This document shows positions 10,938-47,832 of a DNA stretch of 52,646 nt, one piece after another. The stretch spans positions 1 through 52,646 of the forward strand of contig JASJDQ010000003.1 of the NCBI GenBank assembly GCA_030065075.1. Reading direction: 5' to 3'. Under the pieces are notes generated by a model that saw only the letters and a list, made by a program, of their open reading frames with translations, did not search any database and was not told the DNA's origin. How positions within the stretch are numbered: the stretch's first letter is position 1; each line of letters starts with the position of its first letter. The position numbers and the translations under genes are program-made. The DNA is from Paracoccaceae bacterium. Its GTDB lineage: Bacteria > Pseudomonadota > Alphaproteobacteria > Rhodobacterales > Rhodobacteraceae.

Positions 10938-10951
10938 ATTGGTTAACCAAT
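10938..10951. promoter_or_regulatory. Operator palindrome ATTGGTTAACCAAT overlapping the GntR start codon
   Basis: Identical to the 14-mer at 10796-10809. Its last two bases are the A and T of the regulator's ATG (10950-10952). No Shine-Dalgarno sequence is visible before this ATG, and the upstream GGGAATTATTGG is poor, so the gene may be read from a near-leaderless transcript. A repressor bound here would block its own initiation. Confidence 0.75.
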
Positions 10952-32666: not shown

Positions 32667-33772
32667 TCCGCCGCCTGTGGCTTGGCCGCTTCCGCGCTAT
32701 TGACAGCAGGCTTCACTTTTTCGGCCAGCAAGACCATCGAACGCCGGGCCAATTCCGGATCCGCCCAGTCCTTGCCCGCATAAAGCAGCGTGCCGAATTC
32801 GCCGGTTTCTTCACGAAGGGCCAACAGTTCATCGGTTACCTTGTCCGGCGTTCCCCAGATGATCAGGCGATCGCAGACGTGTTCCAGCGTGACTTCATCG
32901 TCCGGCTGATCCTTGTATTCCTTGAACAGGTTGGCTCGACCATGTTTCACCAGTTTGGTGAACAGCTGTTTGTAATAGAACACGTAAGGGCTGTCGGGAT
33001 TGGTCGCATAAGCCCGAGCCGTGTCCAAATCATCCGCCACGAAAACGGACTTTGCGACGCGCCAATTCGCCAGGTCAGCGGGCCGTCCAGCCCGTTCGCA
33101 ACCCTCGACGTACTTCGGCCAGTGCGATGCGACCCATTGTGGCATCAGGAAGTTGGCACTGATCGGCTCCCACCCCCGAGCGGCGGCTTCGGTCACACCC
33201 TTGGAAAACGGAGCCACTGCGGTGACGACAATCGGCGGATGCGGTTGTTGCAGGGGTTTGGGCATGATCCCCTGCCCGATCTCGGGCATCTGCGCCTTCT
33301 CGGTGGTTATGCGCCCGAAATACTCGGTGTCAATGGAATAGGGAACCTCGCTTTCCCAGATTTTCAGCACCGTGTTGATGCATTCCAAAAACATCGCATT
33401 GCGATCTTTTTCGAGGTTACCGAACACCTCGGCATCCGTGGCCAGACCCCCCGGTGATATTCCGAAATTGAACTTCCCATCCAGCATATGGTCCAGCATC
33501 GCGATATCCGCCGCGATCTTGGCGGGATGCAGGTTCGGCATATTCACCGTACCTGTGCCAAGGCGGATGTTTTTGACGGCGGACGCAAGTGAGGCGATGA
33601 ACATCATGCAGTTCGTGATATTCTCGGCCTTGTCGGTCACATGCTCGCCCACATACGCTTCCACGAAGCCCAGTTCGTCGGCTAGCAGGAACGCTTCCCG
33701 ATCCTCTGCTAGACACTTCCGCCAATCCTTGTCCAGCGGGTGAATGGGCATCGTAAAGAAGCCAAGTTCCAT
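32663..33772 (-). CDS. LLM-class flavin-dependent monooxygenase (bacterial luciferase-like)
   Basis: 369 residues from the ATG at 33772, with GAGGAG eight bases upstream; an alternative ATG at 33778 is too close to that site and the much longer frame is not coding. TIM-barrel features: ELGFFTMPIHP, YVGEHVTDKAENITN, RLGTGTVNMPNLHP, GKFNFGISPGG and a later PPIVVTAVAPFSKG. The family uses FMNH2 supplied by a separate reductase to hydroxylate or cleave its substrate. A reductase is at 47842. The operator-like site at 33784 lies just upstream. Confidence 0.87.
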   Translation of the reverse strand: MELGFFTMPIHPLDKDWRKCLAEDREAFLLADELGFVEAYVGEHVTDKAENITNCMMFIASLASAVKNIRLGTGTVNMPNLHPAKIAADIAMLDHMLDGKFNFGISPGGLATDAEVFGNLEKDRNAMFLECINTVLKIWESEVPYSIDTEYFGRITTEKAQMPEIGQGIMPKPLQQPHPPIVVTAVAPFSKGVTEAAARGWEPISANFLMPQWVASHWPKYVEGCERAGRPADLANWRVAKSVFVADDLDTARAYATNPDSPYVFYYKQLFTKLVKHGRANLFKEYKDQPDDEVTLEHVCDRLIIWGTPDKVTDELLALREETGEFGTLLYAGKDWADPELARRSMVLLAEKVKPAVNSAEAAKPQAAE

Positions 33773-33783
33773 GTGCATCACTC

Positions 33784-33801
33784 CTCGTTTGAACGATAAA
33801 T
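33784..33801. promoter_or_regulatory. Putative TetR-regulon site, weak (reverse: ATTTATCGTTCAAACGAG)
   Basis: Read on the minus strand the left half ATTTATCG is complete and identical to that at 42730 and 47385; the right half is degraded. It lies 12 bases before the LLM monooxygenase start. Confidence 0.4.
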
Positions 33802-33910
33802 AGCGCGGTCGATGCTGTTCCCAACATAATAAATTACGACGGTTTCCATTAATAATTTTGATGGCGAGCGAGGCATCTGCCGCACCGCCAACACCTGCGC
33901 CCACCGCGGC

Positions 33911-35227
33911 TCAAAGCATGTAACTCGGCAACCAATTCGCGAGGCCGGGGACGAAAAGCACGATCAGCGCCGCCAGCAGGATCAACAGGAAGTAGGGCGT
34001 CGAACCGGCGAAAATCTTGCCAAGCGTCGCAGTTGGATCCGTTACCGACCCGCGAACCGTATAGACCAGCAAGCCAAATGGCGGTGTCAAAAGACCGGCC
34101 TCAATCACCAGGATGCCGAAGATCGCAAAGGCAAGCGGATCGACCCCCAACGTCAGCGCGATCGGCACGAAGATCGGCACGGTCAGCAGGATGATCGACA
34201 CGCTGTCGATCAACATGCCAAGGACGATCCAGATCAGCATCATCAAGGCAATCAGCATCCACGGCTCAAGCCCGGCCCCGATGAACAAGCCCTGAATGAA
34301 ATTCACGGCACCGCCGAGTGCCAGAAGCCGCGAATACATCTGCGCCGTGATCAGAAGGAACATGATCGGCGCCGTCGTCTTCCCGGCCTGGAAAATGGCG
34401 CTCACGATGTCGCGCCACCGCATGCCCTTCGCCACGCCGATGATCAGCGCGCCAATCGCGCCGAAGCCCGCCGCCTCGGTCGGCGTGAACAGACCCGCCC
34501 AGATACCGCCAATCACCAAAAGGATCAGAAGCAGAATGCCGATTCCGCCGATCAACTCCGCGCGCAGTTCCTCGCGGGTAAGCGGCACGAGCGGCTCTTC
34601 AAAGGCCGGTGCGATCTCGGGCTTCAGCATCGCCGCGATGATGACATAGGCGGAAAACAACACCGCCAGCAGGATGCCCGGTATGACGCCAGCCATGAAC
34701 AAGGCGCCTACGCTCATCTCGGTCAAGATGGCCCAGACGATCAATAAAACGGATGGCGGGATCAGCATGCCCAGGCAAGCCGAGCCGGCCACCGCGCCAA
34801 GCGCAAATGTCTGCTTGTATCCGACCTTCCTCATCTCCGGATAAGCAATGCGCGAAAACGCAGCTGCGGCGGCAATCGACACCCCCGTAACCGCGGCGAA
34901 TACGGTGTTTCCGGCGATCGTCGCAATCGCCAAACGCCCCGGCAGTCGCTTCAGCCAGCGGTCGCATATGCGATACAGATCCGACGCCGCGCCCGAACGG
35001 GATATGAAATCCCCCATCAAGACGAACAGCGGAATGACCGCAAAAACATCCTTGCGGACGGCCTCGTAAGCCGTGTTGCCAAGGATCGAGACCGCCGCCT
35101 CGAAACTGCCCAGCATCAGCCAGACACCAAGACCAGAGCAGATCGCAAGCGCGATACCGATATGTGTGCCCGTCAGGATCAGCAGGATCAGCAGGCCCAG
35201 CATCCAGAGGACGATATCTCCACCCAT
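33911..35227 (-). CDS. dctM: TRAP transporter large permease DctM
   Basis: 438 residues, about 12 spans, with VIPLFVLMGDFISRSG, TVFAAVTGVSIAAAAAFSRI, SACLGMLIPPSVLLIVWA and LTPPFGLLVYTVRGSV. It is closely similar to the DctM at 5548. It follows dctQ by 11 bases. The stop is separated by 138 bases from the LLM monooxygenase start region, which includes the weak operator. Confidence 0.93.
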   Translation of the reverse strand: MGGDIVLWMLGLLILLILTGTHIGIALAICSGLGVWLMLGSFEAAVSILGNTAYEAVRKDVFAVIPLFVLMGDFISRSGAASDLYRICDRWLKRLPGRLAIATIAGNTVFAAVTGVSIAAAAAFSRIAYPEMRKVGYKQTFALGAVAGSACLGMLIPPSVLLIVWAILTEMSVGALFMAGVIPGILLAVLFSAYVIIAAMLKPEIAPAFEEPLVPLTREELRAELIGGIGILLLILLVIGGIWAGLFTPTEAAGFGAIGALIIGVAKGMRWRDIVSAIFQAGKTTAPIMFLLITAQMYSRLLALGGAVNFIQGLFIGAGLEPWMLIALMMLIWIVLGMLIDSVSIILLTVPIFVPIALTLGVDPLAFAIFGILVIEAGLLTPPFGLLVYTVRGSVTDPTATLGKIFAGSTPYFLLILLAALIVLFVPGLANWLPSYML

Positions 35228-35238
35228 CGCGTCCGCCC

Positions 35239-35748
35239 TCAGTCCATGTCCAGCGCGGTACCCGGCGCGCTGACTTCGTCAATCAACTGACCGCGCCAGT
35301 CGAGGATGATCATCGAGATGTAAGCCCACGCACCGAAGAACGACATGACCAGAACCGTACCGCGCACCGGCCATGTCGGCACACGGAGCGCACCCTCGCC
35401 TTCGTACTCACCAATCCGATAGGCATCCGCGAAGGACGGCCACGTGCTCCAGATCAGCCCTACGAAAAACACCAGCCCCAACAAGGCACCAAATGTCCGC
35501 AGAAGCCTCCGCACGACAAGCGGAACCGCATCGGCGAAAATCGATGTGCGCAACATCGCTCCCGAATAGATCGCCAGGGGGAGCTGCAAGAATGTAATGG
35601 CGACGACCGAGTTTTGGATGATCTCTTTCGTGCCGGGGATCGGTTGGTTCAGCAGGCTGCGCCCCAGGACGTCACCGAATATCAGGAATGCCAGAGCAAG
35701 CGTCCAGAAAGCCGAGAACAGATGAATGGCGCGCGTAACCTTGATCAC
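35239..35748 (-). CDS. dctQ: TRAP transporter small permease DctQ
   Basis: 169 residues if started at the GTG at 35748 (GGGGGAGGG upstream, spacing long). A TTG at 35817 would add 23 polar residues and starts 6 bases from the operator, without a ribosome site. Spans and motifs fit DctQ: IFGDVLGRSLLNQPIPGTKEI and LPLAIYSGAMLRTSIFADAVP. It is divergent from dctP (35983), unlike the first TRAP locus. Confidence 0.82.
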   Translation of the reverse strand: MIKVTRAIHLFSAFWTLALAFLIFGDVLGRSLLNQPIPGTKEIIQNSVVAITFLQLPLAIYSGAMLRTSIFADAVPLVVRRLLRTFGALLGLVFFVGLIWSTWPSFADAYRIGEYEGEGALRVPTWPVRGTVLVMSFFGAWAYISMIILDWRGQLIDEVSAPGTALDMD

Positions 35749-35823
35749 AGCGACGATGGCCCTCCCCCGTCCATTCCCGCGTCCATCAAACGGTATCCGA
35801 GACGGTTCCGCGGTCAAGGCGAA

Positions 35824-35841
35824 AGTTAGCAGTTGATAAAT
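35824..35841. promoter_or_regulatory. Putative TetR-regulon site 1 in the dctQM/dctP promoter region
   Basis: On the minus strand the site reads ATTTATCAACTGCTAACT: left half ATTTATC plus right arm GCTAA. It lies just upstream of the dctQ gene and 77 bases from the second site. Confidence 0.6.
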
Positions 35842-35900
35842 AAGACGGTCTGAAATGCCATCGAGTGCTTGACCAACAAGTCCCGGCTCTTAAGATCGGT

Positions 35901-35918
35901 ATTTAGCGAGCGATAAAT
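35901..35918. promoter_or_regulatory. Putative TetR-regulon site 2 in the dctQM/dctP promoter region
   Basis: Plus strand ATTTAGCGAGCGATAAAT; the two arms ATTTA and TAAAT are exact inverted repeats around GCG-AG-CG-A. On the minus strand it reads ATTTATCGCTCGCTAAAT. It is 65 bases upstream of the dctP ATG. Confidence 0.68.
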
Positions 35919-35982
35919 AAGCGTATGCGATGGCCACAAGCGGCAGTAAGACCGAGGGCCAGTATTGATGGGAGGAAACCAG

Positions 35983-37044
35983 ATGAACATCACCAAAACG
36001 ACCGTGCTGTCTGCCGTGGCGGCACTGACAGCCAGCGCCTCATTCGCGGAGAACTTCACATTCCGGATCGGATCGGGTCATCCGAACCCAGCCGCAGTCT
36101 ATGTGGCGGATGTGGCCGACTTCTTCGTGCCCGAGGTCAAGAAACGCGCCGAAGCCGCGGGGCACACGGTGGAATTCGTCGAGGGCTACGGCGGTGCGAT
36201 TGCGGGCGTGGCTGAAACGCTGGAAAGCGTGCAGAACGGCATCCTGGACATCGGCGCCTATTGCATCTGCTTCGAACCGGCCAAGCTCTTCCTGCACAAC
36301 TTCCCGTACTACACGCCCTTTGGCCCGCAGGACTCGGCCGAGGCGATGACGGCGGTGCGCGCCACCTATGACGCGGTGCCCTGGCTGACCGCGCAGTTTG
36401 ACAGCGAATACGGCCAGGTGCTTCTCGGTCTTCATGGCTGGGACAATTATCATCTTGGCACGACTGATCCCTGGGATACGGTCGAGGACCTCAAGGGCGT
36501 TAAGATCGGGGGCGCGGGTCCGAACCTGCCTTGGCTGGAATTCGCCGGGGCCGTGCCGGTCCAATCGACCCTGCCTGATGGATATCTTTCGCTTCAAACT
36601 GGGGTCTACAACGGCTGGCTGATGTTCCCGTCGGCCTATTTGGGCTTCAAATTCTACGAACCCTCGCCACACTACACGCTGATCGGCTTCGGTGCGATGC
36701 CGGTCAATGCGCTGACCATGAACAAGCGCAAGTTCGACAGCTTGCCCGAGGACATGCAGCAAATCCTGATGGACGTTGGCCGCGCCTATGAGGACCAGTC
36801 CGGTGCCTCGCTCAACGGACGTCAGGAAGGCGGCCTGAAGGGCCTGAAGGAAGTCGGTGCACAAATTAAGGAACTGCCAGAAGAAGCCCGCGCTGGTTGG
36901 GCGCAAAGCCTGGCCTCGTTCCCGAACCAGCAAGCGAAGGAAGCCGATGGTCGCGGCATGCCAGGCAGCGAGGTGCTAAAGACGTACCTCAAGGCAGTAG
37001 CCAACACTGGATATACGATGCCCGTCGACTACGTCATCGAGTGA
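35983..37044 (+). CDS. dctP: TRAP transporter solute-binding protein DctP
   Basis: 353 residues from the ATG at 35983 (GGGAGGAAACCAG upstream). Sec signal peptide, cleaved after SASFAE region. The mature protein contains FRIGSGHPNPAAVY, CICFEPAKLFLHNF, GWLMFPSAYLGF and YTLIGFGAM. It is paralogous with the DctP at 7474. It is transcribed divergently from its permeases, with the operators at 35824 and 35901 in between. Confidence 0.93.
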   Translation: MNITKTTVLSAVAALTASASFAENFTFRIGSGHPNPAAVYVADVADFFVPEVKKRAEAAGHTVEFVEGYGGAIAGVAETLESVQNGILDIGAYCICFEPAKLFLHNFPYYTPFGPQDSAEAMTAVRATYDAVPWLTAQFDSEYGQVLLGLHGWDNYHLGTTDPWDTVEDLKGVKIGGAGPNLPWLEFAGAVPVQSTLPDGYLSLQTGVYNGWLMFPSAYLGFKFYEPSPHYTLIGFGAMPVNALTMNKRKFDSLPEDMQQILMDVGRAYEDQSGASLNGRQEGGLKGLKEVGAQIKELPEEARAGWAQSLASFPNQQAKEADGRGMPGSEVLKTYLKAVANTGYTMPVDYVIE

Positions 37045-37051
37045 CATGATC

Positions 37052-37078
37052 AGGGCGGCCTTCAGGGGTCGCCCTTTT
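37052..37078 (+). terminator. Terminator-like hairpin after dctP
   Basis: 9-bp stem (AGGGCGGCC with GGTCGCCCT, one G-U pair), 6-base loop, then TTTTCC. Starts 7 bases after the dctP stop. It is the only one of the four post-binding-protein hairpins followed by a short T-run, so partial termination is likely. Confidence 0.65.
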
Positions 37079-37092
37079 CCTTGGCGAAGCCC

Positions 37093-37968
37093 ATGGCACT
37101 TTCGGACCGAATTCCCTATCAGGCCATCGTCGATCGCCCGCGTCTTACATTGCCCGACGGCAAGCGGCTAGCGGTCTGGGTCATTCTGAATGCCGAGGAA
37201 TGGCGCATCGAAAACGCTATGCCGCGCACCGTCCTGCCCCCGCCAATGGGTCAACCGCTTCTGCCGGATGTGCCCAACTGGTCCTGGCATGAATACGGTA
37301 TGCGCTCGGGCTTCTGGCGGCAATGGAAAGCGCTGACCGACCGCAACATCCCGACAACCTTCGCCGTTAACGGCAGCATCTGCGAAACCTATCCGCGGGT
37401 CGCAAGTGCCGGATTGGACGCCGGATGGGAGTTCATGGGCCACGGCTTCTTGCAAGGCCCGATGCACAGGCTAAAGGATCAAGATCGCGCGATCGCCAAG
37501 GCACTCGACGCCATCGAGGCCTTTTGCGGCAGTCGCCCCCGCTCGTGGGAAAGCCCTGGCCTGACCGAAACCGAAGAAACGCTCGATCTTCTGCGCAAGC
37601 ATGGTGTCGAATACGTCGCCGATTGGGTGATCGACGATCTGCCACAAGCGATCGGTACGCCGTTCGGAGATATCACAACCATCCCCTATACCGTTGAAAC
37701 GAATGACATCACGGTCTACGCCCTGCAAGGCCACGAGTCGGACGTGTTCCTGAAGCGCGGACACGATCAGTTCGACCGCCTCTATGCCGAAGGTGCCGAC
37801 AATGCCCGCGTTATGGCAATTTCGATCCATCCCTACATCACTGGTGCGCCGCACCGCATCCGCTATCTTGAAGAACTGCTTGACTACGTTGGCGAACACG
37901 ATGGCGTTGCGTGGATGACGGCCAGCGAAATTGGGGACTGGTACACTTCGCAGATGAAGGCGGCCTAG
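37093..37968 (+). CDS. PuuE-like polysaccharide deacetylase-family protein
   Basis: 291 residues from the ATG at 37093 (a TTG at 37081 overlaps the hairpin tail). Features of the PuuE (allantoinase) branch of the NodB superfamily: ILNAEEWRIENAMPR, RSGFWRQWKALTDRNIP, GWEFMGHGFLQGPMHRL (metal histidines), SWESPGLTETEETLDLL and ISIHPYITGAPHRI. Members hydrolyse cyclic or linear amides as well as acetyl groups. It directly follows dctP and so probably acts on the imported compound. The ribosome site is weak. Confidence 0.82.
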   Translation: MALSDRIPYQAIVDRPRLTLPDGKRLAVWVILNAEEWRIENAMPRTVLPPPMGQPLLPDVPNWSWHEYGMRSGFWRQWKALTDRNIPTTFAVNGSICETYPRVASAGLDAGWEFMGHGFLQGPMHRLKDQDRAIAKALDAIEAFCGSRPRSWESPGLTETEETLDLLRKHGVEYVADWVIDDLPQAIGTPFGDITTIPYTVETNDITVYALQGHESDVFLKRGHDQFDRLYAEGADNARVMAISIHPYITGAPHRIRYLEELLDYVGEHDGVAWMTASEIGDWYTSQMKAA

Positions 37969-38057
37969 TCGGCTTCAGTTTCGTCATACGATATCTCGCA
38001 CTCACTACCGTCGATCCCTTGGCTTTCCTGGCAACAAGTGGGACAAGTTGAGCGAGA

Positions 38058-38987
38058 ATGCAGGCGCTCTTCGACATCATCCTTCCAGTCTTTGTCGTCA
38101 TCGGCTTTGGCTACGTCGTCGCCTGGCGCGGCTTATTCAGCGAAGCCGGTGTCGATGGTCTGGTGAAATTCACCCAGAACTTCGCCATTCCGTGTCTTTT
38201 GTTTCGCGCCATATCCCAGATCGACCTTGGGGCAAGCGTCAGTGCGCCATTGATCCTCAGCTACTATATCGGAGCGTTTGCCAGTTTCTTTGCCGGATAC
38301 TTCGGTGCGCGTGTCTTCTTCGAACGAAACGCGGTCGATGCGGTCGCGATCGGGTTTTGCTGCCTGTTTTCGAACACCGTCCTTCTAGGATTGCCAATCA
38401 CCGAGCGTGCCTATGGACCAGAGGCGCTCTCGGCCAATTTCGCTATCATCTCGTTTCACGCCCCGCTCTGCTACATGCTGGGCGTCACGGCGATGGAAAT
38501 TGCGCGTAGCCGCGCGTCCGCCGTTACTCAAAAAGCGCGGCGCGTCGTCAGTGCGATGTTCCACAACCCATTTGTCATCGCAATTTTGCTGGGCCTTTTT
38601 GCCAACATCACCGACTTGCCGCTACCAATTCCCCTGTTGGGCGGCATCGACTTGATGGCAAGTGCCGCCTTGCCAGCCGCGCTGTTCAGCCTTGGCGGCA
38701 TCCTTTACCGCTATCGTCCCGAAGGCGACATGAAGGCCATTCTGATGGTTTGCGCTATTTCTCTGGCGCTACATCCCACCATTGTTTTCGGCGCGGGAAA
38801 GATGGCCGCTCTGGATCAGACCGCGCTGCGTTCCGCCGTTCTGACCGCTGCCATGGCACCCGGGGTCAACGCCTATGTCTTTGCCCATATGTACGGCGCG
38901 GCCCGGCGTGTCGCCGCCTCGTCGGTCCTGATTGCGACCGCGGGGTCGATCATCACGATCTGGCTCTGGCTACTGATCCTGCCCTAG
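38058..38987 (+). CDS. AEC-family transporter
   Basis: 309 residues, about 10 spans. It begins MQALFDIILPVFVVIGFGYV (typical AEC N-terminus) followed by GLVKFTQNFAIPCLLFRAI. The middle NTVLLGLPITERAYGP is the conserved broken-helix region and the end has TAAMAPGVNAYVFAHMYGA. 89 bases separate it from the deacetylase gene. It is complete, unlike the AEC carrier at the left edge. It may export or import an organic acid of the pathway. Confidence 0.87.
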   Translation: MQALFDIILPVFVVIGFGYVVAWRGLFSEAGVDGLVKFTQNFAIPCLLFRAISQIDLGASVSAPLILSYYIGAFASFFAGYFGARVFFERNAVDAVAIGFCCLFSNTVLLGLPITERAYGPEALSANFAIISFHAPLCYMLGVTAMEIARSRASAVTQKARRVVSAMFHNPFVIAILLGLFANITDLPLPIPLLGGIDLMASAALPAALFSLGGILYRYRPEGDMKAILMVCAISLALHPTIVFGAGKMAALDQTALRSAVLTAAMAPGVNAYVFAHMYGAARRVAASSVLIATAGSIITIWLWLLILP

Positions 38988-38991
38988 ACGA

Positions 38992-41367
38992 TCACACAAC
39001 GCCCAGTGCCTTCAGCACGCGCTCGGGGGTCATCGGCATCTGCCAGATCGAAGCGCCAAGCGGACGCAACGCATCGTTGACCGCATTCATCACCGCTGCC
39101 GGCGCGCCGCCTGTTCCAGCCTCTCCCGCGCCCTTGGCACCAAGTACGCTCGTCTTGGTGGGTGTTTCGATATGCGCGACGTGGATGTCCGGCATCTCGG
39201 CGGCCATCGGCACAAGGTAATCGGCCATCGAGGCGTTCAGCATTTGACCGTCTTCCGAATAGAGGCACTCTTCGAAAAGTGCGCCGCCGATTCCCTGCAC
39301 GACGCCACCCCGGATTTGTTCGTCGACCAGAAGCGGGTTCAGAACCCGGCCACAATCCTCGACCGCCCAGAAGTCCAGCACACGCACGATGCCCGTTTCT
39401 GTATCCACTTCGACATGCGCAGCCATCGCCCCGTTTGTGAAAACGAAGGGGAACTCGGTCACGCGGTAATGCCGGGTGGCGATCAGTTCCGGCTTCAGAT
39501 CGGGCGGCAATTCGTTGCCACGGTAATATACCGTTCGGGCCAGATCCATGAGCGACATCCGTTCGGCCCCGTCCAGATCGGTGACATGCCCGTCGCGAAT
39601 GTCCAGCTTGTCAGGAGACGACTGCAAAATGGCGGCCGCAACCTCCAGCACCTGATCCTTCAACGCCACCGCCGCCTGCAACATTGCCTCACCGCCGATC
39701 CCGGCTCCGCGCGAGGCCCAGGTTCCGCCGCCATAAGGCGTGGCTTCCGTGTCGCCGGTCTTGACGCGCACGCGGTCGATATCGACGCCGAAGACACCGG
39801 CTGCGATCTGGGCAAGGATAGTATTCGTACCCTGCCCCTGTTCGGTCACAGACGACGCGATCTGTAGCCCGCCGCCCGCATCGAGCCGAACCGTTGCCCC
39901 GTCCTGGCTGGCAATCGGCGCTCCGCCGACGCCATAGAACATGGGCGATGGATTGGTGACCTCCACCATCGAACAGAAACCAATGCCACGGTACACACCC
40001 GCGTCACGAAGTTTCGCCTGATCGTCACGAAGCGCGTCGTAGCCCATCAATTCCGTCAGTTTCACGATGGCCTTATGATGCGACAGGTCATCCAACTTCA
40101 TGCCCGCAGCACTCGCGCGTGGGTAGCTGTCGTCGCCCATGAGATTGCGACGCCGCATCTCGACCGGGTCCATGCCGATGGCGGCGGCCGCATCCTCCAA
40201 CAACCCGTCACATACCGCCATGGCAATCGGATGCCCCACAGCACGGTATTGGCACATCATGTTCTTGTTCTGAAAGACGACCCGTGCCCGGGCGCGATAG
40301 TTCTCTATCTCGTAGGGCGCACCGGTCAGGTTCAGAACCTGGTTGGCCTCGATGGCGGACGTCCGGGGATACATCGAATAGGGCCCGATCCCGGTGATAT
40401 CGTCAAACTCAAGGGCCGCGATCATGCCCTCGCCGGTCACCGCCATCCGGGCGCGGATGATATGATCGCGTGCATGAATGTCGCTCACGAAACTCTCGTT
40501 GCGGTCTGCCACGAACTTCACGGGTCGCTTCAAAAGTTTCGCGGCGGCGGCGGTCGCAACTTCATCGCCATAGGTGTGGATCTTGATCCCGAACGAGCCG
40601 CCCACGTCTTCGGCCACGATGCGCACATTCTCTTCCGGCAAACCAAGATGCTTGGCGAAGATGAACTGCATCATGTGGGGCGCCTGCCCCGAATAGTGAA
40701 AGGTCAGACGATCTTCGGCCGGGTCGTACTCCGCCAGGGCGGTGCGGGCCTCCAGCGTCACGCCGGTATGGCGCCCGAAACGGAACTCCCGCTCAACCGT
40801 TGTCACTCCGTCCAGCTGAAAGGCCGCGTCGACGTCACCGACATCGACGGTGCGCTCCCACGCCAGATTGCTATCGAATTCGGCATGAAGACGCGGTGCA
40901 TCTGGTGCAAGCGCCGCCTCCGGATCGGTCAGCGCGGGCAATTCTTCGTAGTCAACGATGATCTTTTCTGCGGCGTCCTCGGCGGCAGCGCGCGAGGTCG
41001 CAACCACCATCGCCACTGGTTCGCCCTGCCAGCGCACACGATCTACCGCGATCGGATGCTGCGGCGGCGACCTTAGTCCCGCAAGGTGGGTGAGTACGCC
41101 CACATATGGCTCAACATGCGGAACCAGATCAGCACCGGTGAAAACGGCGACAACGCCAGCCGATGTCGCGGCATCCGACGCATCCAGCTTAGTGATCTTC
41201 GCATGGGCGTATGGCGAACGCAGAAAAGCGGCGTGCACCATGCGGGGAAGCTGCTTGTCGTCGACGAAGCGGCCCCGGCCCTCGGCCAGCCGCCGCGCGT
41301 CGGGTCGGGGGACGGTTTTGCCGATATAGGAATTCGGCTTGTCGAATATCGTCAGTGGTCCGGTCAT
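38992..41367 (-). CDS. Molybdenum hydroxylase large subunit (CoxL/XdhB-like aldehyde oxidase family)
   Basis: 791 residues. N-terminal (a+b hammerhead) RFVDDKQLPRMVHAAFLRSPYAHA and the two Mo-cofactor domains are clear: EDVGGSFGIKI, RAVGHPIAMAVCDGLLEDA and the C-terminal GAKGAGEAGTGGAPAAV, with the catalytic glutamate in GAGEAG. The active-site loop reads QYRAVGHP, unlike AYxCSFR (form I CO dehydrogenase) or AYRGAGR (form II), so it is not a CO dehydrogenase. The family hydroxylates aldehydes or N-heteroaromatic rings using water. ATGA overlap with the iron-sulfur subunit. Confidence 0.9.
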   Translation of the reverse strand: MTGPLTIFDKPNSYIGKTVPRPDARRLAEGRGRFVDDKQLPRMVHAAFLRSPYAHAKITKLDASDAATSAGVVAVFTGADLVPHVEPYVGVLTHLAGLRSPPQHPIAVDRVRWQGEPVAMVVATSRAAAEDAAEKIIVDYEELPALTDPEAALAPDAPRLHAEFDSNLAWERTVDVGDVDAAFQLDGVTTVEREFRFGRHTGVTLEARTALAEYDPAEDRLTFHYSGQAPHMMQFIFAKHLGLPEENVRIVAEDVGGSFGIKIHTYGDEVATAAAAKLLKRPVKFVADRNESFVSDIHARDHIIRARMAVTGEGMIAALEFDDITGIGPYSMYPRTSAIEANQVLNLTGAPYEIENYRARARVVFQNKNMMCQYRAVGHPIAMAVCDGLLEDAAAAIGMDPVEMRRRNLMGDDSYPRASAAGMKLDDLSHHKAIVKLTELMGYDALRDDQAKLRDAGVYRGIGFCSMVEVTNPSPMFYGVGGAPIASQDGATVRLDAGGGLQIASSVTEQGQGTNTILAQIAAGVFGVDIDRVRVKTGDTEATPYGGGTWASRGAGIGGEAMLQAAVALKDQVLEVAAAILQSSPDKLDIRDGHVTDLDGAERMSLMDLARTVYYRGNELPPDLKPELIATRHYRVTEFPFVFTNGAMAAHVEVDTETGIVRVLDFWAVEDCGRVLNPLLVDEQIRGGVVQGIGGALFEECLYSEDGQMLNASMADYLVPMAAEMPDIHVAHIETPTKTSVLGAKGAGEAGTGGAPAAVMNAVNDALRPLGASIWQMPMTPERVLKALGVV

Positions 41368-41843
41368 GCGTCCACCTCACCCGAAATGACATCGGAAATG
41401 GCCTCAACGATGGACTGATACCCCGTGCAACGGCAGTAATTGCCGGACAGGTGCGCACGGATCGCATCGCGATCGGCGGTGCCGCCCGCCTCGACATACT
41501 CCAGCGCGCTTGCCAACATGCCGGGCGTACAATAGCCGCATTGAAGCGCGTTGCGTTCGGCAAAGGCCGCGCGAATGGCGTCGGACCGGCCGCTATCGGC
41601 CAGCCCTTCGACCGTAGTGACTGTTGCGCCATCAGCCTGCACGGCCAGCATCAGACACCCCCGCACCATGGCCCCGTTCACCTCCAAAGTGCAGGCCCCG
41701 CACACACCGTGCTCACACCCGACATGACTGCCGGTCAGGCCAAGGTCTTCCCGCAGGAAGTCCACAAGGTGCTTTCGCACGGAAACGGTCGCCGTTACCG
41801 CCTCACCGTTCACCGTCAGTGACACCGATTGCATCTTGCTCAT
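41364..41843 (-). CDS. Molybdenum hydroxylase iron-sulfur subunit (CoxS-like)
   Basis: 159 residues from the ATG at 41843, which overlaps the medium-subunit stop (ATGA). Two [2Fe-2S] clusters: the plant-ferredoxin type GCEHGVCGACTLEVNG plus a later Cys, and the helical type CGYCTPGM ... GNYCRCTGY. All eight cysteines are present. It passes electrons from the Mo centre to FAD. Confidence 0.92.
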   Translation of the reverse strand: MSKMQSVSLTVNGEAVTATVSVRKHLVDFLREDLGLTGSHVGCEHGVCGACTLEVNGAMVRGCLMLAVQADGATVTTVEGLADSGRSDAIRAAFAERNALQCGYCTPGMLASALEYVEAGGTADRDAIRAHLSGNYCRCTGYQSIVEAISDVISGEVDA

Positions 41844-42676
41844 GCCATGACCTCTGCCCATGCGCGTCGCAAGGCGACGCCCGCCAAATGCCGTTTTGTA
41901 TGGGTGCTTGCATTCATGTCCCCTGCAAAGTCGATCTCGCTCAATGCGGCGACGGCGTTCTCCAACTCAGCTTTACCGCCTGACGTGCCGGCAAGAGCAG
42001 CCTCTGCAGCCCTTGCGCGGACCGCGCGATCGGAGACTGCGAAGAACGCGATCCGGACTTCTGACAGATCTTCCGTCGCAACGATTGCGCATCCCGCCAT
42101 GGCATAGTCACCATGGCGGCGCGTGATCTCGTGAAAACCGATGCGCTGGCGCTTGCTTGCGACAGGCAATTGAATGGCGACTACAAGTTCGTCGTCTTCA
42201 CGGGCCGTTTCATAAAGACCAAGAAAGAACTCGTCCGCGGCGACGCTGCGTGCGCCTTTCACATTCTGTAGATGGACCTCTGCCCCAAGCGCAAGCAAGA
42301 GCGCGGGCATCTCGGCCGCAGGATCAGCAAGCGCACAACTGCCGCCAATGGTGCCGCGGTTGCGGATTGCGGGGTGGGCGATATACGGCAACGCCGTTGA
42401 GACAAGCGGTGCGTGCTCGGCCACTTCGCCCGACGCTTCAAGCGCGGCATAGCGTGTCATGGCCCCGATCGTTAGCCGCTGATCCTCGATCCGGACCCCC
42501 GCCAAACCATCGACAGCGTTCAGATCGACTAGAGCCTCCGGCGCGGTAAGGCGCAAATTCATCATCGGCATCAGGCTTTGCCCACCGGCCAACGCAAAGG
42601 CGTCTTCTTCGGCCATCAGCGCCAGGGCCGCCTCCAGCGTTTCCGCTCGGTGATAGTCGAAATCCGGTGCTTTCAC
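41840..42676 (-). CDS. Molybdenum hydroxylase FAD-binding subunit (CoxM-like)
   Basis: 278 residues, GTG start with GGGGGAGGA upstream. The FAD motifs AGGQSLMP (about 31-38) and RNRGTIGGSCALADPAAE (about 102-120) are both intact. It is the first gene of the M-S-L operon. Operator 42730 lies 53 bases upstream. Confidence 0.92.
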   Translation of the reverse strand: MKAPDFDYHRAETLEAALALMAEEDAFALAGGQSLMPMMNLRLTAPEALVDLNAVDGLAGVRIEDQRLTIGAMTRYAALEASGEVAEHAPLVSTALPYIAHPAIRNRGTIGGSCALADPAAEMPALLLALGAEVHLQNVKGARSVAADEFFLGLYETAREDDELVVAIQLPVASKRQRIGFHEITRRHGDYAMAGCAIVATEDLSEVRIAFFAVSDRAVRARAAEAALAGTSGGKAELENAVAALSEIDFAGDMNASTHTKRHLAGVALRRAWAEVMA

Positions 42677-42729
42677 CTGGTCCTCCCCCTTACAAGCCTT
42701 GTGCTTGCCGCATCTTGGCTTATGACACT

Positions 42730-42747
42730 ATTTATCGATCTATAAAT
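42730..42747. promoter_or_regulatory. Putative TetR-regulon site ATTTATCGATCTATAAAT
   Basis: A near-perfect palindrome (16 of 18 positions symmetric). The identical 18-mer occurs at 47385-47402. It lies in the 154-base gap between the divergent molybdenum hydroxylase and peroxiredoxin-like genes. Confidence 0.78.
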
Positions 42748-42830
42748 TAACTCAAGTGCGACGTCGACAGTCCCAGCCAAGCGACACTGGGAAAACCGGG
42801 GCCTTGAATCCGCTTTGAAAGGAAAACCAC

Positions 42831-43349
42831 ATGAGCGCGAAACCAATGCCGGGCACCCCGGCACCTGCACTAACCTTGCCGCTGGCCGGCGGGGGAACAT
42901 TCGATCTGTCCACGCAATCGCCCGAAGCCGCTACGATGGTGATCTTTTACCGCGGTCTGCACTGCCCGGTCTGCGAAATCTATCTGACGAAGGTCAAGGA
43001 CAAGGCCGCAGCCTTTGCCGAAGCAGGTATGCCGATCGTTTTGGTTTCGATGGATGGGCAAGAGCGCGCAGAGAAAGCCAAGTCGGACTGGGGCCTGGAT
43101 GACCTGCCCGTGGCTTATGGCCTGACCGAGGCACAGGCCCGCGATTGGGGTCTTTATATCTCGACCTCGATCAAAGAGGTCGAGCCGCAGACCTTCTGCG
43201 AGCCGGGATGCTTCTGGATCCTGCCTGACGGCACACAGTACCTGATCGATATCGCCACAATGCCCTTCGCGCGGCCCGACCTTGACATCCTTCTGTCAAG
43301 GGTCGTCGCGATCGGCAATGGCTATCCGCCTCGCGGCACAAGCGCCTGA
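42831..43349 (+). CDS. Peroxiredoxin-like (AhpC/TSA family) thiol protein
   Basis: 172 residues, thioredoxin fold with GTPAPALTLPLAGGGTFDL at the start and the redox motif FYRGLHCPVCEIYL (CxxC, about 44-47) in place of a single peroxidatic cysteine, followed by IVLVSMDGQERAEKAK. It is probably a thiol peroxidase or disulfide reductase. GAAAGGA precedes the ATG. It shares the promoter region with the molybdenum hydroxylase, which makes peroxide from O2 when its electrons leak. Confidence 0.83.
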   Translation: MSAKPMPGTPAPALTLPLAGGGTFDLSTQSPEAATMVIFYRGLHCPVCEIYLTKVKDKAAAFAEAGMPIVLVSMDGQERAEKAKSDWGLDDLPVAYGLTEAQARDWGLYISTSIKEVEPQTFCEPGCFWILPDGTQYLIDIATMPFARPDLDILLSRVVAIGNGYPPRGTSA

Positions 43350-43355
43350 AAAACA

Positions 43356-43382
43356 GCACGCGGTGTCACGGACGCCGCGTGC
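43356..43382 (-). terminator. Terminator hairpin for the osmC-tetR transcript
   Basis: A 12-bp stem with a 3-base loop between GCACGCGGCGTC and GACACCGCGTGC (minus strand, one wobble pair), followed by TGTTTTTCAGG. It overlaps the end of the tetR frame. The convergent peroxiredoxin-like gene ends 6 bases away. Confidence 0.65.
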
Positions 43383-44013
43383 CTTCGTGAAACCGGTCGA
43401 GCCCCGAAAGCAGGCTGTCGATCGAAGTCTCGATCACGAAATTCAAATCCTTGATTGGAATTTGTCCGTAAATCTCGGTCCGCACCCCGTAGTAATAAAT
43501 GCCGCCATGCACCGACCATGCCAATTCGGTCTCGTCATCGGTGACTTGTCCAGCGAAAAGCCCGTTCTCATGCCGGTACTCGCGAATGATCGGCTCCAGG
43601 ATACGATCGCGGACACGGTCGATGTATCGTCGGTTGATCGCACCGCCCTTCAGACCAGCGAAAAGAAAAATCCGCATCCAGTCGCGCTGGAACACAACCA
43701 TTGCGTACGCATGATAGAAGCGAACAAGCCGATCACGTAGCGGCACAGTCCGATCGGCCAGCATCTCGTCCCATTCGCTGCGCCATCGCCGAACATAGAC
43801 GGCCTTATAGACCTCGGCGATCAGATCGTCCTTGGAGTCGAAATAGCGGTAAAGCAGTGGCTGCGTTACGCCAAGCCGCTTGGCCAGTTCGCGGGTCGAA
43901 CTGTCAAAGCCTTCTTCGGCGAAGAACTCGATGGCCTTTTGCACGAATTCCTCGCGCCGCTCTTCCGATGGAAGGCGCTTGCGTTTTTCATTTGCTGCGC
44001 TGGCGTCGGTCAC
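43366..44013 (-). CDS. TetR-family transcriptional regulator
   Basis: 215 residues with the TetR helix-turn-helix STRELAKRLGVTQPLLYRYF (about 37-56) and flanking FFAEEGFDS. The C-terminal ligand domain is divergent. Its ATG overlaps the osmC stop (ATGA), so both come from one promoter, which carries the site at 44515. It is the only stand-alone regulator gene between 31 and 49 kb and so the best candidate to bind the ATTTATC sites. Confidence 0.9.
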   Translation of the reverse strand: MTDASAANEKRKRLPSEERREEFVQKAIEFFAEEGFDSSTRELAKRLGVTQPLLYRYFDSKDDLIAEVYKAVYVRRWRSEWDEMLADRTVPLRDRLVRFYHAYAMVVFQRDWMRIFLFAGLKGGAINRRYIDRVRDRILEPIIREYRHENGLFAGQVTDDETELAWSVHGGIYYYGVRTEIYGQIPIKDLNFVIETSIDSLLSGLDRFHEGTRRP

Positions 44014-44489
44014 GCATCCTCCCAGGACCCGTTTATGCGAAGGCGATGGTCCACGATAAGCCCCTTGGCCAAGGTCTGTTCAAGGAAACATCCCTTCTTC
44101 GCGGCGTCCAACAAGCGCCGCTGATCCTCGGCCGACGCGTCGCTGTCAAGCGACACATCAAGGCCGAAACCAACCGGGTTCGTTACATAGGGCTCGTTGC
44201 CTTCCTGCTCGCCTTCCCAGTGCAGGCGCGCACGCACCTCGACGTCACGGACTTCGATTTTCAATCGCTTCGAAAATGCTCGGATCTGCGTCATGAGGCA
44301 TCCGGTCAGGGCCGCGGTGAAAAGCGCCAGCGGTGGCGGCGCGGTGCCGTCCCCACCATGAAAGGCGCCTTCATCTGTCGCCAGTTCGAAGCTTTCCTTC
44401 TGGGCCGGCCAATCGACCGAAATATCGTTGCGCATTTTGCCGCTGGATCGCCCAACGCCTTCGAAAATCACATCGAACCGTTTCTTCAT
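44010..44489 (-). CDS. OsmC/Ohr-family peroxidase-like protein
   Basis: 159 residues with LALFTAALTGCLMTQIRAF (first conserved cysteine) and a second at KKGCFLEQTL (equivalent to the CPV..TL motif). OsmC proteins reduce organic hydroperoxides. Its pairing with tetR suggests that the same inducer controls a protective function. Confidence 0.85.
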   Translation of the reverse strand: MKKRFDVIFEGVGRSSGKMRNDISVDWPAQKESFELATDEGAFHGGDGTAPPPLALFTAALTGCLMTQIRAFSKRLKIEVRDVEVRARLHWEGEQEGNEPYVTNPVGFGLDVSLDSDASAEDQRRLLDAAKKGCFLEQTLAKGLIVDHRLRINGSWEDA

Positions 44490-44514
44490 TGCAAACCTTC
44501 CGAAAGCTGGGGCA

Positions 44515-44532
44515 AATTATCAATCGATAACT
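44515..44532. promoter_or_regulatory. Putative TetR-regulon site in the osmC-tetR/cyclase promoter region
   Basis: AATTATCAATCGATAACT. Core TTATC-AATC-GATAA is an exact inverted repeat of TTATC. It lies 26 bases from the osmC start and 54 from the cyclase start, so it is an autoregulatory position for tetR. Confidence 0.68.
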
Positions 44533-44585
44533 AAACATGACCGGGACGACCCGGCAAGACAAGCGAACACATGGGAGGAAAGCGG

Positions 44586-45542
44586 ATGGCCAAGCTCACC
44601 CGTGAGGATATCTATCGTACCGCCAAAGAACTTTCGAACTGGGGTCGTTGGGGCGACGACGACCAGATCGGGACGCTCAACAACATCTCTCCGCAAGACA
44701 TCGTTTCTGCAGCGGGGCTTGTGAAGCAGGGCAAAGTGTTTGGCTTGGGTCTCGACCTCAAACAGAAAATTCAGTCCGGGCTGTTTGGTGGGCGTTGGAA
44801 CCTGATTCACCAGATGCTCGCCACGGGCACCGACGCCGTTAGCGGCGAACAGGATGGCGACGGCAATGCTTATCTGCGCTACGCCGACGATGCGATCAAC
44901 GTGCCGTGCCAGGGATCGACGCAATGGGACGCGCTCTGCCACATCTTCCTCGATGACAAGATGTATAACGGGTTTTCTGCGACCGATGTGACGGTAAACG
45001 GCGCCAAGAAACTGGGGATCGAGAACTACCGCGACAAGATGGTCGGACGAGGTGTGTTGCTGGACATCGCACGCTGGAAAGGCGTCGACAGCCTGGACGA
45101 TGGTTACGCGATCACAAATGCCGACCTCGACGCCTGCGCCGCGGCGCAGGGGGTGGAGATCCGCAAGGGCGACTTCGTCATCTTCCGCACCGGCCACCAG
45201 GAACGCTGCCTCGCCAGCGGCGACTGGGAAGGCTATGCAGGCGGCGACGCGCCGGGGCTTGCCTTCGAAACCGCCTACTGGATCAAGGAGCATGACATCG
45301 CCGGCATCTGCGCCGACACCTGGGGATGCGAGGTGCGCCCGAACGAGACGGACGAGGCAAACCAGCCCTGGCACTGGGTCGTGATCCCGGCGATCGGTAT
45401 AGCAATGGGGGAAATCTTTTATCTCAAGGAGCTGGCCGCCGACTGTGCCGAGGATGGCGTCTATGAGTTCCTTTTCACCGCACCGCCACTACACCTGCCC
45501 GGCGGGGCGGGATCTCCCATTAACCCTCAGGCCATCAAGTGA
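44586..45542 (+). CDS. Cyclase-family hydrolase (kynurenine formamidase-like), long form
   Basis: 318 residues from the ATG at 44586 with GGGAGGAAAGCGG upstream. The fold is recognised by the order of WNLIHQMLATGTDA, the pocket VPCQGSTQWDALCHIF, GVLLDIARWKGVDSL and the late AGICADTWGCEVRP. In the metal motif HxGTHxDxxxH the first two histidines are C and Q here, while D and the last H are kept. It is thus a variant member. Likely substrates are amides or lactams; function not assigned. Its stop overlaps the GST start (GTGA). Confidence 0.8.
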   Translation: MAKLTREDIYRTAKELSNWGRWGDDDQIGTLNNISPQDIVSAAGLVKQGKVFGLGLDLKQKIQSGLFGGRWNLIHQMLATGTDAVSGEQDGDGNAYLRYADDAINVPCQGSTQWDALCHIFLDDKMYNGFSATDVTVNGAKKLGIENYRDKMVGRGVLLDIARWKGVDSLDDGYAITNADLDACAAAQGVEIRKGDFVIFRTGHQERCLASGDWEGYAGGDAPGLAFETAYWIKEHDIAGICADTWGCEVRPNETDEANQPWHWVVIPAIGIAMGEIFYLKELAADCAEDGVYEFLFTAPPLHLPGGAGSPINPQAIK

Positions 45543-46174
45543 CACCGGTTCTCTGGGGCCGCGCGAGTTCCGTCAATGTCCAAAAGATCATGTGGGCGCT
45601 GGAGGAATGCGGCATCGCCCACAGGCGCATCGACGCGGGCGGCAGGTACGGGCAAACGGACACTGCCGAATTCGCTGAGATGAACCCGATGCGGCGCGTG
45701 CCGGTCTGGCAAGAAGACGGGCTGACGCTTTGGGAAAGCCACGCGATCCTGCGCCATCTGGCCCGTGGCCCCGGCGCAGCGCTTTGGCCGAAAACCCGCA
45801 ACGAACAAGCCATCGCCGACCAATGGATCGAGTTCACGACGACGACGCTTTTGCCGCCGCTTATCGGCGTTTTCTTCGAAACCGTGCGCCTGCCGCCCAA
45901 CGAGCGATCGCCTGAGATGCTGTCAAAGCATCTCGGCGCGCTCGACGCTGCGCTCGACATTCTGGATGGACGGATATCCCAAAGTCCATGGTTGGCCGGG
46001 AAACACTTCGGCATTGCCGATATTGCCGCCGGATCGCCCCTGTATCGGTATTTCACGATGGACATTCGACGCCCCGCCAGAGCCGCGCTGGACGACTGGT
46101 ATGGCCGCCTGACCGAACGCCCTGCATATGTGAAGACCGTCATGACCTCATATGAAGAACTCCGCGGCGCCTGA
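45539..46174 (+). CDS. Glutathione S-transferase (GSTA-like)
   Basis: 211 residues, GTG start overlapping the cyclase stop. N-terminal thioredoxin domain with LWGRASSVNVQKIMWALEE, RVPVWQEDG and LWESHAILRHLAR (glutathione site). C-terminal helical domain ends FTMDIRRPARAALDDWY. It could be a maleylpyruvate or maleamate-type isomerase in the pathway. It belongs to a different subgroup from the GST at 11640. Confidence 0.87.
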   Translation: MTPVLWGRASSVNVQKIMWALEECGIAHRRIDAGGRYGQTDTAEFAEMNPMRRVPVWQEDGLTLWESHAILRHLARGPGAALWPKTRNEQAIADQWIEFTTTTLLPPLIGVFFETVRLPPNERSPEMLSKHLGALDAALDILDGRISQSPWLAGKHFGIADIAAGSPLYRYFTMDIRRPARAALDDWYGRLTERPAYVKTVMTSYEELRGA

Positions 46175-46180
46175 GATTGA

Positions 46181-47365
46181 TCACGTCACGGGAACAGCAG
46201 TTTCTTTCATGATCTCATCAAGCTTCGGATTGCTGCGTCCGTCCTGATTGACGGTCCGATCCGTGTCGAAGATCAAGGAGCCAAGGTGCCGGGCCTGCAT
46301 GTAGGCGCGACGCGCCTTTGGCACACGCTCGTGGGAATAAGCAGCAAGCGCTTCCGAAAGGGGCGCGCTTGACACATGCGCCGCAAGCGCAAGTGCGTCT
46401 TCCGCCGCCTTGGTGACACCCATACCCACGTGCGGGCGCGCAACACAGGCAGCATCGCCCGCTAAAGCCACGCGACCCTCGCCGAAAACCGGACTGTAAT
46501 GGTCGTAGATGGGCGTGAAGAATGGGCGACCGCTTCTTTGGATGATTTCAACGAAGGGCGCCGGCAGGCGTTTCGCCGCGTCCGCCTCCATCCCGGCCAG
46601 AACGTCGTCCCGAACCAAGGGCGGCGGGATCGAGACGGGGTGATACGTGCCTTCGGCGTCGGTCAGCATATCCCGCAACTCATCCGTGGTGGTAGCGCTG
46701 TACCACACGAAATTATAGCGCCTATGTCCGGGGCGCAGGTCGTTCTTTATCCCCGCAATCGGATACCCAACGATCTGCGTGCCGTTTGGGGCAAAGAACC
46801 CGAAATCACGGAAGATACCTTCCGGGACAACGCATTCATCGGCCAGCGCGCGCCAGACGACGTATCCGGAATATTGAGGCTGAACCTCAGGCAACATTTG
46901 TCCTCGGATGGCCGAGCGAAACCCGTCCGCCCCAACGATCAGATCCGCCTCTTCACGGCTGCCGTCCTCGAATTCAGCCAGCACGCCGGATTCCGTCTCC
47001 TGATAACCCGTGATACCGCGACCAAGACGGTAGGTGCCCTCGGGCATCAACACGCGCAAGATCCGGTGAATGCGGTCCCATGACGTCACCACCTGAGGAT
47101 AGGGCAAACGTTTGACGAGAGCACCGGTGATATCGAAAGCAATACGGTCTTCGACCGCCACACCAAGATCCTCGGTCGATGCGCCCACCCTGTGGAACGC
47201 GTCGATCAGCCGTTTATGCGTAACGATTCCGGCCCCTCGCCCCGCCAGTTCTACAGCGGTTCGTTCGAAGACCCGAACCGACCACCCGGCGTTCAGCAAG
47301 GCCGCGGCAGCGAAAAGCCCGCCGATCGAGCCACCCGCAACAATGGCCGTCCCTGTTCTTTGCAT
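46181..47365 (-). CDS. FAD-dependent aromatic hydroxylase (2,6-dihydroxypyridine 3-monooxygenase-like)
   Basis: 394 residues from the ATG at 47365 with GGGAAG upstream. Three FAD/NAD motifs are intact: AGGSIGG (about 11-17), DLIVGADGFRSAIRG and GRVALAGDAACVARPHVGMGVTKAAEDA. The last block and the GRGAGIVTHKRL segment look most like DhpH-type pyridine hydroxylases rather than salicylate hydroxylase. It inserts one oxygen into an electron-rich ring with NAD(P)H. The operator at 47385 lies 20 bases upstream. Six bases separate the convergent GST. Confidence 0.85.
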   Translation of the reverse strand: MQRTGTAIVAGGSIGGLFAAAALLNAGWSVRVFERTAVELAGRGAGIVTHKRLIDAFHRVGASTEDLGVAVEDRIAFDITGALVKRLPYPQVVTSWDRIHRILRVLMPEGTYRLGRGITGYQETESGVLAEFEDGSREEADLIVGADGFRSAIRGQMLPEVQPQYSGYVVWRALADECVVPEGIFRDFGFFAPNGTQIVGYPIAGIKNDLRPGHRRYNFVWYSATTTDELRDMLTDAEGTYHPVSIPPPLVRDDVLAGMEADAAKRLPAPFVEIIQRSGRPFFTPIYDHYSPVFGEGRVALAGDAACVARPHVGMGVTKAAEDALALAAHVSSAPLSEALAAYSHERVPKARRAYMQARHLGSLIFDTDRTVNQDGRSNPKLDEIMKETAVPVT

Positions 47366-47384
47366 TCGGGCACTTCCCAAGCTA

Positions 47385-47402
47385 ATTTATCGATCTATAA
47401 AT
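47385..47402. promoter_or_regulatory. Putative TetR-regulon site ATTTATCGATCTATAAAT
   Basis: Exactly the same 18-mer as at 42730-42747. It lies in the 62-base gap between the divergent FAD hydroxylase and cupin genes, where it can control both. Confidence 0.78.
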
Positions 47403-47427: not shown

Positions 47428-47832
47428 ATGGCAATGACAGAGTCCTCACCACAGGCATTCACCGGCCCCCATTGGACGGAAGGACTGCTGGATGAACTGC
47501 GAGCGACCGGAAACAACGGTCAGGTCGGCTCACGGATCGTCAGCGAGACCGAGCGGGTGCGGGTCTGGTTGATCGAAATGCAACCCGGCGATCGGCTGCC
47601 CTTTCACACGCATGTGCTGGATTATTTCTGGACGGCAACCACCCCTGGTAAGGCGCGTTCCCGATACTCGGATGGCAAGGTCGTCGAGGCTGACTATGCA
47701 ACTGGCGATACCAAACATTTCCACTTCGCCGCCGGAGAGCAGATGACCCACGATCTGGAGAACATCGGCGACTCGGTTCTGTGCTTTACGACTGTCGAAT
47801 TTCTCGACAGCGCGAACCGCCCGCTATTGTAA
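47428..47832 (+). CDS. Cupin-domain protein
   Basis: 134 residues. Cupin motif 1 reads PGDRLPFHTHVLDYFW (HTH plus D instead of E) and motif 2 GEQMTHDLENIGD. Metal ligands HTH and H are present, so a mononuclear metal site is likely. It is short for a ring-cleaving dioxygenase but could assist or regulate. RBS GGAAGG. Divergent from the FAD hydroxylase and convergent with the flavin reductase, 9 bases apart. Confidence 0.78.
   Translation: MAMTESSPQAFTGPHWTEGLLDELRATGNNGQVGSRIVSETERVRVWLIEMQPGDRLPFHTHVLDYFWTATTPGKARSRYSDGKVVEADYATGDTKHFHFAAGEQMTHDLENIGDSVLCFTTVEFLDSANRPLL

Follow-up and report, generated by a model that had tools for sequence, protein, structure and literature searches.

We analysed a 52,646-nt stretch of the genome of a Paracoccaceae bacterium (assembly GCA_030065075.1, contig JASJDQ010000003.1, positions 1 to 52,646; the window hereafter), focusing on a catabolic gene cluster that carries five copies of a palindromic site and encodes a TetR-family regulator as their predicted binder. 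The source genome is a 3.92-Mb draft in 276 contigs and is 83% complete. An earlier note, made from the sequence alone, had described the genes concerned as scattered, which is overstated: they form one contiguous cluster at approximately 31.9–47.8 kb of the window, largely kept in relatives. Genes for an alpha/beta hydrolase, an LLM monooxygenase, dctM and dctQ (minus strand) are followed by dctP, a PuuE-like gene and an AEC-type carrier (plus), coxL-coxS-coxM (minus), a peroxiredoxin-like gene (plus), and tetR and osmC (minus). The cyclase and GST genes (plus), a flavin adenine dinucleotide (FAD) monooxygenase (minus) and a cupin-like gene (plus) complete the order, and a C1-type flavin reductase (minus) comes last. 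The names dct, AEC, coxS, coxM and cupin were given by reading only. The genes, with the basis for each assignment, are:

31872..33772, minus strand: alpha/beta hydrolase and LLM monooxygenase, without a site of their own (Pfam, nearest structures)
33911..35817, minus strand: dctQ and dctM, TRAP transporter (open reading frames, named by reading; homologues in relatives)
35983..37968, plus strand: dctP (by reading) and PuuE-like polysaccharide-deacetylase-fold gene (Pfam, NCBIfam, nearest structure)
38992..42676, minus strand: coxM-coxS-coxL, three-subunit molybdenum hydroxylase (Pfam; coxL nearest to 1t3q)
42831..43349, plus strand: peroxiredoxin-like (AhpC-TSA) gene (PF00578)
43366..44013, minus strand: TetR-family regulator, proposed binder (PF00440, E 2.2e-14; helix/half-site covariation)
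43840..43866, minus strand: recognition helix codons 50-58, TQPLLYRYF, with P52 (helix 51-57 in the predicted model)
44010..44489, minus strand: OsmC-family gene, overlapping the tetR start (PF02566; NF041052 above cut-off)
44571..46174, plus strand: cyclase (PF04199; start probably 44586, by reading) and GST (Pfam, nearest structures)
46181..47380, minus strand: FAD monooxygenase (start probably 47365, by reading; nearest structure 2vou)
47428..47832, plus strand: small cupin-like gene, named in the earlier note (open reading frame; no Pfam or NCBIfam match)
47842-48789, minus strand: C1-type flavin reductase with a winged-helix-like tail (NCBIfam, nearest structure)

Operator sites and their conservation

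The earlier note had named six shared sites, of which five stand as one 18-bp palindrome, ATTTATC-N4-GATAAAT, with a 4-bp centre. All five lie between divergent genes. The sites, which are given without strand, are:

35824..35841: operator 1 of the dctQ/dctP pair, AGTTAGCAGTTGATAAAT; matrix score 23.6, counterpart in 10/10 relative regions with a close pair
35901..35918: operator 2 of the dctQ/dctP pair, ATTTAGCGAGCGATAAAT; pattern and matrix, counterpart in the 10 regions with a close dctQ/dctP pair
42730..42747: operator between coxM and the peroxiredoxin-like gene, ATTTATCGATCTATAAAT; pattern and matrix, before coxM in 13/13 relative regions
44515..44532: operator between osmC-tetR and cyclase-GST, autoregulatory position, AATTATCAATCGATAACT; matrix, before the cyclase in 13/13 and osmC in 10/10 relatives
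47385..47402: operator between the FAD monooxygenase and the cupin-like gene, ATTTATCGATCTATAAAT; pattern and matrix, before cupin in 9/10 and the FAD monooxygenase in 8/13 relatives
33784..33801: sixth site of the earlier note, a half-site, rejected as an operator; score 5.0, 0/10 relatives

The sites at 42730 and 47385 are identical. At up to three mismatches, ATTTATCGATCTATAAAT gave six matches in the window (three places, each on both strands), where shuffles predict 0.05. A symmetrised matrix built from the five sites scored them at 23.6–30.8, with no other place in the window reaching 11 (plus strand, 52.6 kb). The bare half GATAAAT occurs six times in the window against 3.35 expected, and is hence uninformative. 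The site at 33784 was rejected because it lacks a second arm and is missing upstream of LLM in all 10 relatives with sequence there; on the minus strand its single half, ATTTATCG, is perfect. With it falls the claim that the LLM monooxygenase is controlled from a site of its own. The LLM gene lies 138 bp past dctM on the same strand, and we infer that it and the hydrolase gene are probably transcribed onward from dctQM.

In its own genome, the strongest site at up to three mismatches occurs in only three places, all within the cluster, and a reversed control pattern does not occur. The sites at 35824 and 44515 are weaker and exceed the mismatch limit, so this uniqueness covers the strong form only. 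A motif common across the genome and away from the cluster, the result that the earlier note had named beforehand as contradicting its reading, was thus not what we found. A previous genome pattern, ATTTATCGNNNNNGATAA, with the wrong spacing, had given 25 scattered matches at up to two mismatches and was dropped for the N4 spacing.

We then used the five-site matrix on relatives, a scan of the kind that the earlier note had proposed. Genes in 16 regions other than the window were mapped by tblastn and 499 kb were scanned, a site being called at a score of at least 15 and no more than 300 bp upstream of a gene. Of the 64 matches, 61 lay at most 330 bp upstream of a mapped cluster gene, and 50 column-permuted matrices gave a mean of 1.06 matches and a maximum of four. 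Sites were present upstream of coxM in 14/14 rows (13 regions; the G184 gene is in two pieces), the cyclase in 13/13, osmC in 10/10, cupin in 9/10, dctP and dctQ each in 10/12, the FAD monooxygenase in 8/13 and the peroxiredoxin-like gene in 5/12. Both dctP misses (G199 and HLUCCA12) hold weaker sites, with scores of 11.8 and 14.4. A site directly before tetR was found in only 3/14, because tetR mostly follows osmC; the autoregulatory position that the earlier note assigned to the 44515 site is borne out by the sites before osmC. No site was found in the relative regions upstream of LLM (0/10), the PuuE-like gene (0/11), the flavin reductase (0/9), the alpha/beta hydrolase (0/9), dctM (0/12), gst (0/8), coxL (0/13) or hibadh (0/4). 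The retention of five operators at the same promoters agrees with the single regulon first suggested. Sites are also kept where genes have changed their order or have moved: in G284 the FAD monooxygenase-cupin pair retains its site on a separate contig, and in G065 a site approximately 384 kb from tetR stands ahead of a 56% cupin homologue. This argues for regulation in trans and not for hitch-hiking with neighbouring genes.

By eye, and with the window included, the arms deviate in a manner particular to each promoter: TTAGC in 20/22 dctQ/dctP sites, TTATA in 11/14 coxM sites and 9/9 FAD monooxygenase sites, and TTTTC in many cyclase sites. A deviation kept at each promoter may reflect a −10 box constraint or a grading of affinity.

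Across 295 sampled genomes of the family, a TetR homologue at E 1e-20 was found in 30, with at least 50% identity in 12 (own genome included). The pattern ATTTATCRNNYGATAAAT, at one mismatch, matched 27 of the 295 genomes, comprising all 12 of these and 15 of the 283 others (Fisher p 2.4e-14 for the association); as the pattern was set after viewing sites in those relatives, this tests restriction more than independent discovery. Three of the 15 (G151, G232 and G243) encode a TetR protein of 40–43% identity and have sites beside dctQ/dctP, two of them also at gst/tetR. Among the other 12, 11 were inspected (all but G059) and had no close cluster homologue beside the matches, with cluster matches of at most 30% identity within a 20-kb stretch, or none. 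The reversed control pattern matches 10 of the 295 genomes, about the level of these remaining motif-only genomes.

The TetR protein and its half-site classes

The TetR protein matches the TetR_N helix-turn-helix family PF00440 at 53.4 bits (cut-off 24). Its predicted model comprises ten helices with a mean predicted local distance difference test score of 85.1, and the recognition helix (51–57) includes residue 52. The best listed PDB matches to the model are TetR-type regulators, with template modelling scores of up to 0.68 (CecR); this structure search returned general TetR relatives only and gave no clue to a ligand.

Among homologues, the recognition helix and the half-site vary together. 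Proteins with the helix TQPLLYRYF, or near it, accompany TTATC-N4-GATAA operators; those with TQSLLF(K/N/R)YF accompany TGATC or TGAGC half-sites (TGAKC below) at the tetR/coxM promoter; and those with SHAVIYRHF accompany TGACC-N4-GGTCA operators. Of the 35 homologues for which a site was called, 21 belong to class TTATC, 11 to TGAKC and 3 to TGACC. Residue 52 (Pro, Ser or Ala, respectively) is the only one of 201 columns that corresponds one-to-one with the class, while columns 51, 53, 57 and 13 separate only the three TGACC proteins. Kinship alone should make many columns fit, and the single column that fits one-to-one is part of the recognition helix, which argues for the TetR protein as the likely binder, as the earlier note had supposed. 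Pro52 together with TTATC is also found in L044 (Actibacterium), L148 and L151, which fall outside the window clade in the tree (weak support, long branches). Of 22 loci from the class search, 12 entered the tree, and G165 and G151 were classed via sites at other cluster promoters. G284b, which has an Ala-type helix and an imperfect site, was excluded from the second tree and the covariation, given its long branch and no site at one mismatch, and has no class.

The relatives also differ in gene content. A sister unit, tetR/coxMSL-dctPQM with TGAKC operators, is present in G279, G035, G241, G262, G152, G067, G083, G006 and G074 and as a second copy in G084, and shares only the molybdenum hydroxylase and the TRAP transporter with the window cluster. 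The variant cluster of G151, G232 and G243 has dctPQM, LLM, GST, the TetR protein of 40–43% identity and TTATC operators, and lacks coxMSL, the cyclase and the FAD monooxygenase as far as it was read. A gene read as LysR-type (for example, L042 19541-20455, and G142) occurs in 9/15 regions, in several of which it lies between dctM and LLM, divergent from LLM, where it may drive LLM. Between the peroxiredoxin-like gene and coxM, G084, G142, G168, L042 and G199 have another gene read as OsmC-like, which the window lacks.

Proposed regulation, substrate and alternatives

The operator at coxM would cover the spacer and −10 element, as a CTTG box starts 9 bp ahead of it in the window and 10 bp ahead in 7/13 relatives, and at the cyclase a TTGAC box starts 14–20 bp ahead of the nearer operator in 7/13 relatives. 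The dctP box starts 26–42 bp before operator 2 in 10/11 regions (none in G142), and the two dctQ/dctP operators are spaced 59–96 bp apart. Since operators in relatives overlap core promoter elements, the most likely mode of action appears to be repression that a pathway metabolite would relieve; looping or activation may apply at dctQ.

The nearest solved structure to the molybdenum hydroxylase large subunit is quinoline 2-oxidoreductase (1t3q), and to the FAD monooxygenase it is 2,6-dihydroxypyridine hydroxylase (2vou, E 1.1e-40; next 1.5e-18). The PuuE-like protein is nearest to PuuE allantoinase, the alpha/beta hydrolase to 3-oxoadipate enol-lactonase, the LLM protein to 3,6-diketocamphane 1,6-monooxygenase and the cyclase to an uncharacterised protein. 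The flavin reductase, likely the partner of the LLM protein, matches the p-hydroxyphenylacetate 3-hydroxylase reductase over its full length and is above its NCBIfam cut-off. Of ten proteins compared with NCBIfam, it alone reached an equivalog cut-off; the molybdenum and FAD hydroxylases reached no equivalog of N-heteroaromatic type. The nearest structures suggest, as the most economical guess, an N-heteroaromatic substrate that would be hydroxylated and then opened to an acid. Ring opening of the trigonelline or pyridine type by LLM and flavin reductase is one conceivable route. Elsewhere in the window, positions 1-30000 hold more catabolic and transport sets, and two GntR-like genes at 10950 and 23877 (open reading frames by reading only).

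The computation shows the sites, that they recur at matching promoters of relatives and are confined to the cluster, and that they covary with the TetR helix; from this we infer the binding, repression, inducer and substrate of the following model, to which we give a probability of about 0.78. The TetR protein would bind the five 18-bp operators as a dimer and repress dctQM, dctP with the PuuE-like gene, coxMSL, the peroxiredoxin-like gene, osmC-tetR, cyclase-GST, the FAD monooxygenase and the cupin-like gene, with LLM and the hydrolase expressed by read-on from dctQM. The substrate, probably N-heteroaromatic, would enter via the TRAP transporter, and it or an intermediate of the pathway would bind the C-terminal domain of TetR and free the operators, so that all units would be induced together.

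Several observations weigh against this model. Sites are absent before the FAD monooxygenase in 5/13 and the peroxiredoxin-like gene in 7/12 relatives, G165 and G151 have none directly before tetR, and G199 has an extra strong site by a 32% coxS relative on another contig, which is unexplained. No TTGAC box was seen in the window's own cyclase promoter, and a consensus scan of 42600–42900, around the coxM site, gave no sigma-70-like promoter. For the covariation, the half-site classes were assigned by hand and shifted only about twice, so kinship is partly possible as a cause; column 117 likewise predicts the class, through seven different residues; and mixed sites exist before tetR in G243 (AATTATCACTTGATCACT) and before cyclase/osmC in G084 (AATGATCGATCGATAAAT). 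The covariation moreover covers 35 of 44 tree rows, as nine (L147, L149, L152, L153, L156, L157, L158, L159 and L163) have no called site within 330 bp upstream of tetR. Two of these fit the residue-52 rule, L149 with a near match (TTTTATCACCAGATTAAT) and Pro52, and L159 with a TGATC palindrome and Ser52. In that upstream stretch, L147, L152, L156, L158 and L163 (Pro52) are without such an N4 palindrome, and L153 (Ser52) and L157 (Ala-type helix) have none. Lastly, the dctQ TTGAC box starts 5–8 bp beyond operator 1 in 11/11 regions with the pair, window included, which places the operator upstream of the −35 element, an unusual position for a simple repressor.

This dctQ arrangement, together with the operator spacing, is what favours the same TetR protein acting partly as an activator or looping between paired operators, above all at dctQ/dctP. 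We consider this unlikely overall, as the operators of coxM (window and 7/13 relatives) and the cyclase (7/13 relatives) are at repressor positions. Binding of the motif by another regulator, with TetR acting otherwise, is less probable still. Candidates are the LysR-type protein of many relatives (9/15 regions, in several between dctM and LLM), a GntR protein such as the two read in the window, and the winged-helix tail of the flavin reductase. The LysR-type gene was rejected as the source of the binder, as it was not seen in 6/15 regions, window included, where the sites are present (open reading frames up to 16 kb from tetR, with G133 and HLUCCA12 represented by short stretches). The half-site class, furthermore, tracks the TetR helix, also in the other-family homologues L148 and L151 and in L044. 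That the sites are AT-rich promoter elements or chance occurrences is very improbable: bare GATAAAT is at chance frequency and some arm segments may also serve as −10 boxes, but palindromes of the strong form are found nowhere else in the genome and are kept at the same promoters of relatives.

Beyond the regulon in the window, we give slightly less than even chances to a broader proposal, in which an uncharacterised TetR subfamily across several alphaproteobacterial families governs an undescribed N-heteroaromatic pathway, its specificity having shifted stepwise through TTATC, TGAKC and TGACC chiefly by changes at residue 52 (Pro, Ser, Ala). If true, this would provide a natural recognition-code series for TetR proteins. 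The natural shifts in operator specificity follow a single helix position with unusual clarity. A hunch from raw sequence has become a defined regulon with a named predicted binder and a testable residue-base rule, and the conserved catabolic pathway, without a description in the literature searched, has an inducer that could be found by a simple reporter screen.

Comparison with known systems

The gene set of TRAP transporter, LLM, PuuE-like, cyclase and OsmC proteins matched no cluster in the literature searched, which covered few subscription journals. It resembles the nicotine/2,6-dihydroxypyridine and quinoline degradation clusters in that its molybdenum and FAD hydroxylases are nearest to their enzymes.

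As a regulator, AcuR, the acrylate repressor of Rhodobacter sphaeroides, offers a parallel from what we take to be the same bacterial order as the present genome. Like the TetR protein as predicted here, it is a TetR-family repressor of a catabolic unit, autoregulated, with a palindromic operator on the promoter; the operator, TAATAGAC-N6-GTCTATTA, overlaps a TTGATT/TATTAT promoter (PMC3017554). The systems differ in the operator, which is ATTTATC-N4-GATAAAT here, and in extent, with one operon there and at least five promoters here (PMC3017554). The TetR protein is not an AcuR equivalog, scoring 34.7 bits against a cut-off of 247 for NCBIfam NF051457.

The tetO half-site presumably has the same TATC/GATA core with a different centre spacing, and we take P39 of TetR to be the equivalent of P52 here. 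Both proteins have Gln-Pro at the start of the helix. In TetR, residue 39 takes part in operator specificity: V36F/E37A/P39K altered it (PMC6515661) and P39K abolished operator recognition (PMC6570905). The NCBIfam TetR model gave 35.3 bits against a cut-off of 265, and the regulated function is catabolism here and efflux in TetR.

Reconstructions of IclR regulons correlate helix-turn-helix residues with operator bases (PMC8222616), the same type of evidence as used here; the present case concerns another family, few shifts and predicted binding. The type of gene control is a familiar one, of which this regulon is a well-supported new case.

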